Source of the DNA: Ophiosphaerella korrae
Taxonomy: Eukaryota; Ascomycota; Dothideomycetes; Pleosporales; Phaeosphaeriaceae
Direction: 5' to 3'
Assembly (NCBI GenBank): GCA_028456385.1
Contig: JALNQF010000005.1
Location: forward strand, 248,001-312,000
Length of the DNA stretch: 64,000 nt
Shown here: one piece after another, positions 7,288 through 10,569 of the stretch
Numbering within the stretch: position 1 is the first letter of the stretch
Layout: the number at the start of each line of letters is the position of its first letter
Program-made: the position numbers and the translations under genes
Notes under the pieces: generated by a model
The model's database searches: none
What the model saw: the letters and a program-made list of their open reading frames with translations, nothing else
What the model was told of the DNA's origin: nothing

Positions 7288-8550
7288 CTACGCTGAACTC
7301 TTCGCCACCGGCTGCCATTTGCCCTCCTTCTTAAACTGACCGCCATTCAACGTCGCGGCCGCCATCTGCCCGACCATGTAATCCCTCCCCTTAATCGCCC
7401 ACACCATCTGACTCGGCAATTTATTCCCATTGAACGCCCCAACTCCCTTCTGTGTCCCAATCGGCACAAGCTGCGACTCCTTTGTGGCCGCCGTGTAATG
7501 TCTGTCGCCGCCGGCCGCACCTCCGCTGAGATGCGCGATCAAGTCGGTGCGCAGATTCGTCATGGCAACGGGGATGTGCGAGACCATGTCCAGGCCGCCA
7601 CCGCGCACGGCAGACGCCACGTCGCCGACGACATAGACGCGTGGGCCTGCAGACGCTGTTTCGACGCGGAGCGTTTGAGCATTGCAAGTGACTCTGCCGC
7701 GGGTGTCGAGCCAGTCCTTTGGGAGGAAACCAGTATTAGGGCGAGTGCCCGTTGCGTCGATGTAGATATCTGCCTCGATAGACTCGCCGGTCGATAGCTC
7801 GATCTTCGTTTTCGAGCCGCCTTCCGCGTCGACCTTGGTTGTGGAGACGACTTTGGTGTTATACACGACGTTGCAGCCCACGCGCTTCAGCAGCTTTTGC
7901 GCGCTTTGGCTAATCTCTTCGCGCAGGACGGGGAGCAGCTTTTTATCGCCGCAGATAATTGTGACTTTGGCTTTGGGGTTCTTGGGTGCTGAGGCGAGGA
8001 AGCTTGGTTTACCGTTCAAGATCTCGGCTACTTCGCCCGCTGTCTCAACACCAACGGGGCCACCGCCGCCAATAACGACCGTCTTTGCGGTCTTCAAGCT
8101 TGCTTGGAAATCATCGTAGACCTGCTCGAGCGCGGCAGCGTCTGTGACCTGTGTGAAGAGCGGGCTTGGTGTGCTGAACCCAGTGGCAATGACAAGCGCC
8201 ACATATGGTATCGATTGTTGTTCGCCTTCAACTGTTGTCACCGACACGGTTTGGCCTGCTGGGTCAACATGTGTGGCTGTTCCCTGTACCAGTTTGAATT
8301 TGGGGAATGCGTAGGTAAAGCCCGGCTCAATTGGATAGAACATCTTCTTTGGTGGCATCATCTCTTTGGAGACACAGGCCCTGGGCGCACCATATCGCCA
8401 GAAGAGATCCTTGGACGGATTCACTATCGTCAAGTTGTATGTAACACCATCTTTCTTTGGTAGCTGTGGGATAACATGCTTAAAGCAGAAGTGCGCAGCA
8501 CCGAGGCCAGCGAACGATCCGCCGAGAACGAGAATGGTTTCGGTGCTCAT
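7288..8550 (-). CDS. AIF/FSP1-like FAD-dependent NAD(P)H oxidoreductase
   Basis: A single exon of 420 aa. I took the ATG at 8550 because the FAD-binding strand begins right after it (TILVLGGSFAGLGAAH, a GxGxxG-like Rossmann loop); the longer frame to 8676 has no such support. The second dinucleotide-binding site, VVIGGGGPVGVETAGEV, lies near residues 160-176. The conserved FAD motif DIYIDATGTRPNTGFL is near 280, and VYVVGDVA follows near 330. This is the layout of the AIF/AMID/FSP1 family and of type II NADH dehydrogenases. Family members pass electrons from NAD(P)H to quinones or act in apoptosis-like death. There is no mitochondrial presequence or C-terminal membrane anchor, so a soluble or peripherally bound enzyme is likely. 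The exact substrate is unknown. Confidence 0.88.
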   Translation of the reverse strand: MSTETILVLGGSFAGLGAAHFCFKHVIPQLPKKDGVTYNLTIVNPSKDLFWRYGAPRACVSKEMMPPKKMFYPIEPGFTYAFPKFKLVQGTATHVDPAGQTVSVTTVEGEQQSIPYVALVIATGFSTPSPLFTQVTDAAALEQVYDDFQASLKTAKTVVIGGGGPVGVETAGEVAEILNGKPSFLASAPKNPKAKVTIICGDKKLLPVLREEISQSAQKLLKRVGCNVVYNTKVVSTTKVDAEGGSKTKIELSTGESIEADIYIDATGTRPNTGFLPKDWLDTRGRVTCNAQTLRVETASAGPRVYVVGDVASAVRGGGLDMVSHIPVAMTNLRTDLIAHLSGGAAGGDRHYTAATKESQLVPIGTQKGVGAFNGNKLPSQMVWAIKGRDYMVGQMAAATLNGGQFKKEGKWQPVAKSSA

Positions 8551-9319
8551 GGTGATGTTGTGAGGGGTCAGCTGATGACTCTTGAAAATATTATAATTGC
8601 TGCAACTTCTTTCAAACGAGTTGTCGCAAAAACAAACACTGTATTGAATCCGGTTGTTCCGATTGATGCACTGCAAGGCTGGAAGATTGGAAAGCGCAAG
8701 GGGGTATCAAACGAAAAAGGAAAAAATGTTGACGGGATTAGGTGATAAATAAACTTGTCTCAATGGGCGAGGCGCGTTGCATTTAAAGTTGTGACGCGAC
8801 TCAGTGCTCACGCCTTAGGTCTTCCGGCCGGGGAACCGAGATGTCGAACGATGGATTGCGCTTGAAACATCCGACTTGATCAGACGAGAGGAACCTGTAT
8901 TTATAATCTGTTGCTTAGGGTAGTGCAAAATACAGTCAGGTTTTGTGACAAGAGGTGTGCTTACTGTGCGCGCGCATAAAGTTGTGGTTTGAGCAACCAT
9001 TTTCATAACATGGCTGTATTTCATTTGTGCGGAAGACCGGCACGTGCAGCACCACAATTTACACAGCATAATGTTGGTAATGGCAAAAGTGTATGCTTGG
9101 GTGCATGCTTGGACGTTTTTGATTCCTATCTTCTGGAGCCCCAACGCCAGTCCGGTGTCCCCATGCAAGACCCATCATGGCCGCCCTGTGCAAACAGAAG
9201 ATTCATCGCGCCTAAGCGTAAAGATCCACCACATCAGACTGGCTTTGATTGACCATGATTGCACATGTACCGTGATTGGTTGGGCACATGTTGTCCCTGG
9301 CTACATACTGGGCAGCCTT
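8551..9319. other. Intergenic stretch
   Basis: Upstream of the oxidoreductase gene and downstream of NAC-beta. Short overlapping frames here (for example 8815-9168) show no family features and no codon pattern like the neighbours. No gene is supported. Confidence 0.5.
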
Positions 9320-10065
9320 TTACTCGACCTCGGTCTTGGACTCGAAGTTATCCCCAGCAACTAGTTCTGGAATGTCGTCGTCATCGTCGTCGTCATCATC
9401 CTTCTTGTCACCGTCCTCGCCCTTTTCCTTTTGCATGTTCTGGTAGCTCTCGGCAAGTTTGCGAAGCGACGCAAGCGAGTCTGGGCCGAGCTGGTTGAGG
9501 ATGCCGGGCACGAGCTCTGTGAGCTCCTTATCCTCGCCGTGGCCGTAGATGGCGAAGGTGTTTGATGGTACTGAGGCGTGGACTGCGTATATCAAGTCAG
9601 CAATATCTGCTGATCACCGATAAGGGAACATACCCTTTGGTGCCGAGAAGTGGATGACGTTTCCGTCGCTCTTGAACATGTTGACCTCTTCAATAGCCTG
9701 GATGGGCTGGACATTGAGCTTCTTGAGCGCTGTCTGTAGCTTCTTGTCGTCGGTGCCTGAGCTTTTGTGGACCTTCTTCACCTTCCTGCGTGGGGTGCCT
9801 TTGCCTCTATGCCGTCTAGTTAGCCCAGTTTCAATAAATGTTCCCCGCTCCCACTCCGTTCGCAGTATTCGCAAATTTCATCCATGTGAATGCGGGGTCG
9901 TGGGCGCTGAGGGAGGATTGCTTACCCTATTCACATGTCTGTTAGCCAATTGATCAATTCTAATCGCCAGAAAGAGCCTATTTACGGCGCAAAGAAGGTC
10001 TCCTTCGTGGAAAACGTACCAATGCGCACCGACGCCTGCATGCGCGCCAACTTGGCCTGATCCAT
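9320..10065 (-). CDS. EGD1: Nascent polypeptide-associated complex subunit beta (BTF3/EGD1)
   Basis: Four coding exons read leftward: 10065-10020, the single base 9926, 9806-9634, 9582-9320; 160 aa. Introns are 9927-10019 (93 nt), 9807-9925 (119 nt) and 9583-9633 (51 nt). Exon 1 gives [15 protein letters not shown] plus a first G. The one-base exon and the next exon complete the almost invariant GGKGTPRRK ribosome-binding motif. The NAC domain follows ([53 protein letters not shown]). The tail carries a run of Asp. NAC-beta pairs with NAC-alpha at the ribosome exit tunnel to shield nascent chains and control targeting. Both introns around the one-base exon have CTAAC branch sites. A single-intron reading (acceptor at 9805) is possible but would lose one conserved Gly. 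Confidence 0.95.
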
Positions 10066-10569
10066 AATTGCGGTGGAGAGAGGATGGGTGACTAGGTAGA
10101 AGAAGCTGTGTCGGGGTATATGTTAGCCGACGGGTTCCCAAAATTTCGCCTGTAGTGGGTTCGAGCTTCAGAACAGCGGCAAGACGGCGAACTCACCTGA
10201 ATAGCGGACCGTGGGCGGATGTCAAAGGTGATAGATGGTGAGGTTGCGGGTGACGGGCGTCGGAGAAACTCAGTCGGAAGTGCCGATTGTGTGCCTCGCT
10301 TGTTGTGCTGGAGCTCCCTGTCCAACATTAGGAGGGGTACCACAAAACTCGATTTGTGTGCATCAAATCAAGTTTCTTCAGACTCGAACGCGCATAGCAT
10401 AAATCTAACTACAGCTCCGTGGGCAATGGATCCTCATTGATATCCCAAGTCTATCAAGAACCGCAACGCCCAAACGCCTCGCTATGCAAAAAGTCGAGCA
10501 CAATTGGTTGCATGACCAGTACGCACTATCCAATCAACAAAACAAAACTACGCTGCGCTCCATGATTCT
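10066..10569. other. 5' region of NAC-beta
   Basis: Between NAC-beta and the poly-cysteine protein. The 5' UTR and promoter of NAC-beta should lie here, and splice-like words near 10105-10200 suggest a possible 5' UTR intron. No gene is seen. Confidence 0.4.

Follow-up and report, generated by a model that had tools for sequence, protein, structure and literature searches.

Coding exons of a single nucleotide are already known. Arabidopsis APC11 has one (PMC4674806) and VPS55 contains another as a microexon (PMC8831610); both are one-nucleotide coding exons between two introns, missed by annotation and old in their lineage (PMC4674806, PMC8831610). They are plant genes, the APC11 exon being an A within a stretch of 422 nt, and they were studied with reporter constructs and RT-PCR (PMC4674806, PMC8831610). 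A fungal case is the CYP621A gene of Fusarium, in which, according to the authors, 18 SRA reads prove a one-nucleotide exon and all but one of the transcript models are wrong at that place (PMC12940212). Pezizomycotina also have stwintrons, in which two U2 intron units share one interruption and are removed in two steps (PMC5639578, PMC8469720).

Here we present a further gene for this list, that of the beta subunit of the nascent polypeptide-associated complex (NAC-beta), found in a window of 64,000 nucleotides from the ascomycete Ophiosphaerella korrae. We regard it as highly probable that this gene contains a constitutive one-nucleotide coding exon, a G at position 9926, between two ordinary U2 GT-AG introns. 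The likeness to CYP621A is close: both genes are fungal, both have the arrangement AG|G|GT, in both the base is the middle one of a glycine codon within a conserved motif, and in both a phase-1 exon end faces a phase-2 exon start (PMC12940212). CYP621A, however, is a P450 gene reported from Fusarium with reads, whereas NAC-beta is a ribosome-associated chaperone whose exon apparently occurs in several classes of Pezizomycotina and is known here from genome and protein sequences. The locus resembles stwintrons in being ascomycetous and in having two intron units in one interruption, but a stwintron has an internal intron that breaks up an element of the external one (PMC5639578, PMC8469720), while in NAC-beta neither intron is broken and a single base from between the two is retained. 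Among the literature matches listed, no paper on a one-nucleotide exon in NAC-beta was found. If our reading is right, a basic chaperone gene of many filamentous fungi has the smallest possible exon, and genetically tractable fungi would offer a native substrate for studying how the spliceosome handles splice sites one base apart, in what order and with which factors.

The NAC-beta gene and its probable one-base exon

The complete NAC-beta (EGD1/BTF3) gene lies on the minus strand, with its ATG at 10065 and its stop codon ending at 9320, and encodes 160 amino acids. The predicted protein carries the NAC domain PF01849 (86.1 bits against a cut-off of 21.3, Pfam) and finds one match only in its own 63-Mb assembly at E <= 0.001. 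Its top named protein match among the matches listed (best 120 of 4618) comes from Ophiobolus disseminans (Pleosporales, Phaeosphaeriaceae), at 97% identity. An N-terminal segment of the RRK(X)nKK type is present, and a 13-residue stretch aligns with IGGKGTARRKKKV of BTF3 (PDB); the motif and its role in ribosome binding by NAC-beta are described in an earlier paper (PMC5986199). With its NAC domain, N-terminal IGGKGT and RRK(X)nKK-type motif the protein is an ordinary member of the NAC-beta / BTF3 / EGD1 family (PF01849) as far as seen; the gene structure alone is unusual. Both glycines of IGGKG are invariant in an alignment of 14 hand-picked fungal proteins, none of them from the class with one glycine, and BTF3 of the solved structure likewise reads VRIGGKGT. 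Gly16, the first of the two, sits in the N-terminal tail, adjoining the ribosome-binding motif. The gene is laid out as follows.

10106..10196, minus strand: intron in the 5' UTR, 91 nt, GTGAGT...GCTAAC...ACAG; its removal aligns the UTR frame with the 5' part of P0002, a contig described below
10020..10065, minus strand: coding part of exon 1, 46 nt, ending CGC ATT G in phase 1 and giving the first base of the Gly16 codon
9927..10019, minus strand: intron 1, 93 nt, donor GTACGT, CTAAC at 9945-9941, acceptor AATAG; 3' end GGCTAACAGACATGTGAATAG
9926..9926, minus strand: one-nucleotide exon G, middle base of the Gly16 codon
9807..9925, minus strand: intron 2, 119 nt, donor GTAAGC, CTAAC at 9823-9819, acceptor CATAG; 3' end GGGCTAACTAGACGGCATAG
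9634..9806, minus strand: exon 3, starting A-GGC-AAA-GGC in phase 2 and encoding the 11-residue ribosome-binding segment
9805..9806, minus strand: AG dinucleotide inside exon 3, a tandem acceptor that could give IGKG if one single intron were used
9583..9633, minus strand: intron 3, 51 nt, GTATGT...GCAG, seen as a gap in tblastn with P0002
9320..9582, minus strand: exon 4, including the stop codon, as read in the sequence

After splicing, the 5' UTR can be read without a stop in the ATG frame over some length, both in the window and in P0002. Downstream of the gene, at 7288-8676 on the minus strand, lies a 462-aa open reading frame that by eye resembles an FAD-dependent pyridine nucleotide-disulphide (AIF-like) oxidoreductase.

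The two back-to-back introns that an earlier note on this DNA had described were recovered at the same positions, together with their donors, CTAAC sites and AG acceptors. The single G that it had proposed as an exon is exactly one base long, AATAG|G|GTAAGC at 9927-9925, and both flanking introns are canonical (GTACGT/CTAAC/TAG and GTAAGC/CTAAC/TAG). The three bases of the Gly16 codon thus lie in three different exons: G10020, G9926 and A9806. Because exon 1 ends in phase 1 (ATTG|GTNNGT) and exon 3 begins in phase 2 (N|GGC), a single intron between these two edges is never in frame. When all parses from exon 1 to exon 3 were enumerated with donors at 10050-9986 (GT or GC) and acceptors at about 9850-9791, none of the 22 in-frame, stop-free single-intron parses gave IGGKG. 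A middle exon of up to 12 nt allowed three two-intron parses, of which only the one with G9926 gave the motif; this bears out the earlier claim that the motif appears only with the extra base. Two of the single-intron parses look reasonable. One, which the earlier note had correctly named as keeping the frame at the cost of a glycine, uses the acceptor at 9805 and gives IGKG in a protein of 159 aa; the other, a third in-frame option absent from that note, joins a donor at 10015 (GTTTTC) to the acceptor at 9807 and gives IGTGKG, a form also found in the models of several relatives.

The internal signals are seldom produced by chance. When the pattern CTAAC-N5..25-YAG-exon-GTRNG was applied to the 213-nt region between exons 1 and 3, a length of 1 was the sole fit among exon lengths 0-30. 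Such a length-1 fit occurred in one of 20,000 dinucleotide shuffles of the region's interior, and a fit of any of the lengths 1, 4, 7 and 10 in six of 20,000.

Junction forms in database models and a transcript-like contig

Three protein searches were made, and the best 120 matches of each (from 4618, 482 and 1012) gave 284 rows combined. One search used an IGTGKG query and another a short query that favours partial open reading frames, which biases the 284-row tally, so the unselected tally rests on the remaining search (best 120 of 4618). There, 66 rows carry an organism name and 46 of them are aberrant at the junction: the 66 comprise 20 GGKG, 21 I-G-x-G-K-G, 6 with a single glycine, 17 with other insertions or losses and 2 that lack exon 1. 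Among the 54 rows of the same search without an organism name, 53 are of the GGKG type and the 54th, P0059, has GGKG behind a different start. The named models come mostly from annotated genomes. Over all matches listed, the named Pezizomycotina (n=108) divide into 21 GGKG, 42 IGxGKG, 8 single-glycine, 31 other and 6 without exon 1; the named entries from outside Pezizomycotina are all GGKG (9/9); and the entries without an organism name (n=167) comprise 110 GGKG, 52 classed as without exon 1, among them P0151, which is misfiled there and reads IGGEG, and 5 other. The 21 named Pezizomycotina models that read IGGKG may have no mismatch or may simply be well annotated.

The commonest aberrant form would be expected if gene prediction moved the donor by +4 to the GT at +5, which would add GTNN to exon 1. 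The residue x would then be the codon formed by donor positions +3 and +4 and the first base of exon 3, so that x is predicted by the donor: Ile from GTATGT, Thr from GTACGT, Glu or Asp from GTGAGT, and Lys or Asn from GTAAGT. In the 42 IGxGKG models among the matches listed, x is I in 20, T in 12, D in 3, H in 2, E in 2, and N, A and K in one each; 40 of the 42 residues have codons whose first base is A or G, which a GTRN donor could yield, and the two His misfit. Applied to the window, the rule yields IGTGKG. A shifted donor would thus explain the form seen in databases without any difference in the protein itself; if so, in many database entries for NAC-beta a residue next to the ribosome-binding motif is spurious or has been dropped, and further one-nucleotide exons could be sought cheaply by looking for phase mismatches in which the donor dictates x. 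Off the +4 rule lie P0032 and P0077, which read IGHGKG, and the model of Plenodomus lindquistii (P0006), which reads IDGKG.

Splicing itself is addressed by P0002, a 944-bp jgi contig with 96% identity, whose translation runs from 5' UTR into protein with no intron sequence between. It crosses the junctions of the 5' UTR intron, the one-nucleotide exon and intron 3 contiguously, it reads VRIGGKG, and with the 91-nt intron 10196-10106 taken out of the window its UTR part matches there as well. Its translation suggests that P0002 is a spliced transcript of a close relative, and by analogy the same splicing would be expected in Ophiosphaerella korrae. P0002 makes a strong case, in contrast to the other IGGKG entries without an organism name, many of which may come from fungi that lack the intron and are therefore weak evidence on its splicing.

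These data bear on the two single-intron parses. A single intron of 215 nt (10019-9805, acceptor ATAGAG), with the protein reading IGKG and having one glycine fewer, is very unlikely, even though it is in frame, has no stop and corresponds to the way in which 8 of the 108 named Pezizomycotina models among the matches listed are written. Its acceptor would have to be a GAG that follows a TAG by 2 nt, it removes one of two glycines that are invariant in the hand-picked alignment and present in BTF3, and it leaves the internal CTAAC/AATAG/G/GTAAGC unexplained (1/20,000 shuffles); moreover, the one-glycine class is absent from the 54 rows without an organism name (best 120 of 4618). A single intron of 209 nt (10015-9807), whose donor is the second GT of GTACGT and whose protein reads IGTGKG, we consider extremely improbable. 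It too is in frame, and IGxGKG stands in 42 of the 108 named Pezizomycotina models (matches listed, one query being biased towards it) and in 21 of the 66 unselected ones (best 120 of 4618). Its donor GTTTTC is poor, however, and IGxGKG occurs in none of the 115 entries without an organism name that start in exon 1 (110 GG and 5 read-throughs among the matches listed, of which many may lack the intron); P0151 has IGGEG, and the transcript-like P0002 of the close relative has IGGKG.

Genomic read-through translations and a probable history of the introns

Several entries without an organism name are unspliced open reading frames on genomic contigs, which run into intron 3 or start inside an intron, so that intron sequence can be partly decoded from the translated residues. 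Of the 51 rows among the matches listed that have neither an exon-1 start nor an organism name, all but P0059, thus 50, have R or S in front of GKG, the residues expected from AG|N-GGC; this test fixes the acceptor and is equally compatible with a single phase-2 intron or with the twin layout. A CTAAC within about 32 nt upstream can be decoded in 17 of 35 testable rows (matches listed), against a mean of 6.2 and a maximum of 13 in 500 shuffles.

Five read-through frames among the matches listed start in exon 1 (P0130, P0141, P0154, P0181 and P0270). In four of them, P0141, P0154, P0181 and P0270, the translation admits a phase-1 donor, no phase-2 donor, and an acceptor AG|N-GGC, so one more base is needed. 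The pattern CTAAC...YAG|G|GTRNG, decoded from the degenerate codons, fits in frame in all four, at one place each, with decoded intron lengths of 68/115 nt (P0141), 53/73 (P0154), 58/68 (P0181) and 53/79 (P0270). Shuffled peptides fit in 21, 14, 21 and 16 of 3000 cases in the same order (0.5-0.7% each). Multiplied together these give 1.2e-9, a figure that holds for independent fits and a pattern chosen in advance; since the peptides had been read before the pattern was set, it can serve for orientation only. Further exon lengths are compatible in places (5, 9 and 12 in P0141; 0, 2, 5 and 7-11 in P0181; 7, twice, and 9 in P0270), and of these 7 and 10 are likewise in frame, but length 1 alone fits all four. 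By the nearest exon-3 part among 45 hand-picked named proteins, P0141 is closest to Polyplosphaeria (98%) and P0181 to Letharia (98%), with P0154 and P0270 undecided.

The fifth frame, P0130, fits a single phase-2 intron, ATTGG|GTAYGT, and has no twin-layout fit; 5 of 3000 shuffles fit, and since the region is only 87 nt long it is a weak control. P0130, P0025 (Tothia) and P0093 (Venturia) all read IGYV..., which agrees with a single phase-2 intron, the script having been run on P0130. Their ATTGG|GTAYGT is one base off the phase-1 donor seen in the other frames, which would make a natural difference of one nucleotide in intron position. P0140 has no intron at the junction and yet reads into intron 3. 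In P0073 (Lasallia pustulata) the retained LTQLLHLGQVS could hold a one-nucleotide exon followed by a GC-AG donor (GCAAGT). A pattern search of relatives' DNA confirmed none of 136 genome-contig matches and none of 11 viral-contig matches as NAC-beta.

The mismatch in relatives also weighs against an assembly error, in which one G would be missing at the edge of exon 1 or exon 3 and an ordinary intron of 213 nt would suffice; the sequences at stake are ATTGGTACGT and CATAGAGGC. One extra G at either edge would indeed let a single intron give IGGKG, and the protein has only one match in the assembly, but 42 named models (matches listed) and the four read-through frames point to this phase mismatch too, and the internal splice signals would have to be chance. 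Such an error is thus hardly credible, and we keep to the one-nucleotide exon.

This exon is probably not peculiar to one genome. Among the matches listed, IGxGKG models come from Aspergillus terreus (Eurotiomycetes), Lepraria (Lecanoromycetes), Drepanopeziza (Leotiomycetes) and Peziza (Pezizomycetes), and also from Pyrenophora and Bipolaris, which we take to be Dothideomycetes; a model of Aspergillus niger carries the telltale error as well. Sordariomycetes are nearly absent among the matches listed, the only entry recognised being P0214, presumably Sarocladium. The earlier note had hinted that the second intron arose within Pleosporales; we set this aside because the signature of the mismatch extends to models of Eurotiomycetes, Lecanoromycetes, Leotiomycetes and Pezizomycetes, and a recent event within that order is improbable. 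The simplest history suggested by the translations would have two adjacent ancestral introns, of which the first was lost in Venturia/Tothia-like lines and both were lost elsewhere (e.g. P0140). We think it likely that the one-nucleotide exon of NAC-beta was present in the common ancestor of most Pezizomycotina and was kept in much of Dothideomycetes, Eurotiomycetes, Lecanoromycetes, Leotiomycetes and Pezizomycetes, that some lineages of the Venturia/Tothia type lost one intron, that databases hide the exon behind IGxGKG, and that, since each partial splice ends translation early, splicing at this exon may also help to control the NAC level.

Proposed mode of intron removal and pattern matches in the assembly

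The spliceosome would remove the two introns one after another, by intron definition. Removal should be successive, since with a single base between the two sites U1 bound to the second donor would overlap with the 3'-site factors bound to the first acceptor. Whichever intron left first, a full site would remain for the second reaction (ATTGG|GTAAGC or AATAG|GAGGC), and G, G and A would be joined into Gly16 of IGGKG. Successive removal has likewise been argued for APC11 by Guo and Liu, who cite a 9-nt potato exon from whose flanks the second intron leaves first (PMC4674806). That the two units form a stwintron, with an internal intron that breaks up a splice element of the external intron and with no intervening base retained in the mRNA, is barely conceivable: two canonical introns do abut, in the very subphylum where stwintrons are described, and intron 1 splits the extended donor of intron 2 between positions -2 and -1, but donor, branch site and acceptor are complete in both introns, removal of intron 1 makes no new GT, and IGGKG requires that the mRNA retain the intervening G. 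With its splice elements intact and the G retained, the locus is not a stwintron, and the twin-intron mechanism that the earlier note had thought possible is, in that sense, not needed.

Omission of the G leads to a stop at codon 25 (after 24 codons), retention of intron 1 to a stop at codon 28, and retention of intron 2 to a stop at codon 17 (ATT GGG TAA). Since each of these products stops early, only the fully spliced mRNA would make NAC-beta, and the partial products, for the same reason, are likely targets of NMD; a regulatory use of them is a possible conjecture. The RNA of 9790-10065 folds unremarkably (z 0.50; 137 of 200 shuffles fold at least as well), so we claim no special hairpin and take no hint on mechanism from it.

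Across the assembly the arrangement is rare and without genome-wide enrichment: CTAACN{5,25}AGGGTAAG has 36 matches on both strands of the 63 Mb, against 38 for its reversed control, and CTAACN{5,25}ACGGTAAG has 6 against 41 for its own reversed control in the same assembly. Ten of the 36 were examined for further one-nucleotide exons, and none passed a crude filter of 50 open codons on both sides, a filter that lacks a positive control and could overlook genes whose first exon is short, as that of NAC-beta is. Several of the 36 are near-identical copies of repeats, with CTAACGCGCGTAGGGCTACTAGAGGGTAAG-like stretches on several contigs.
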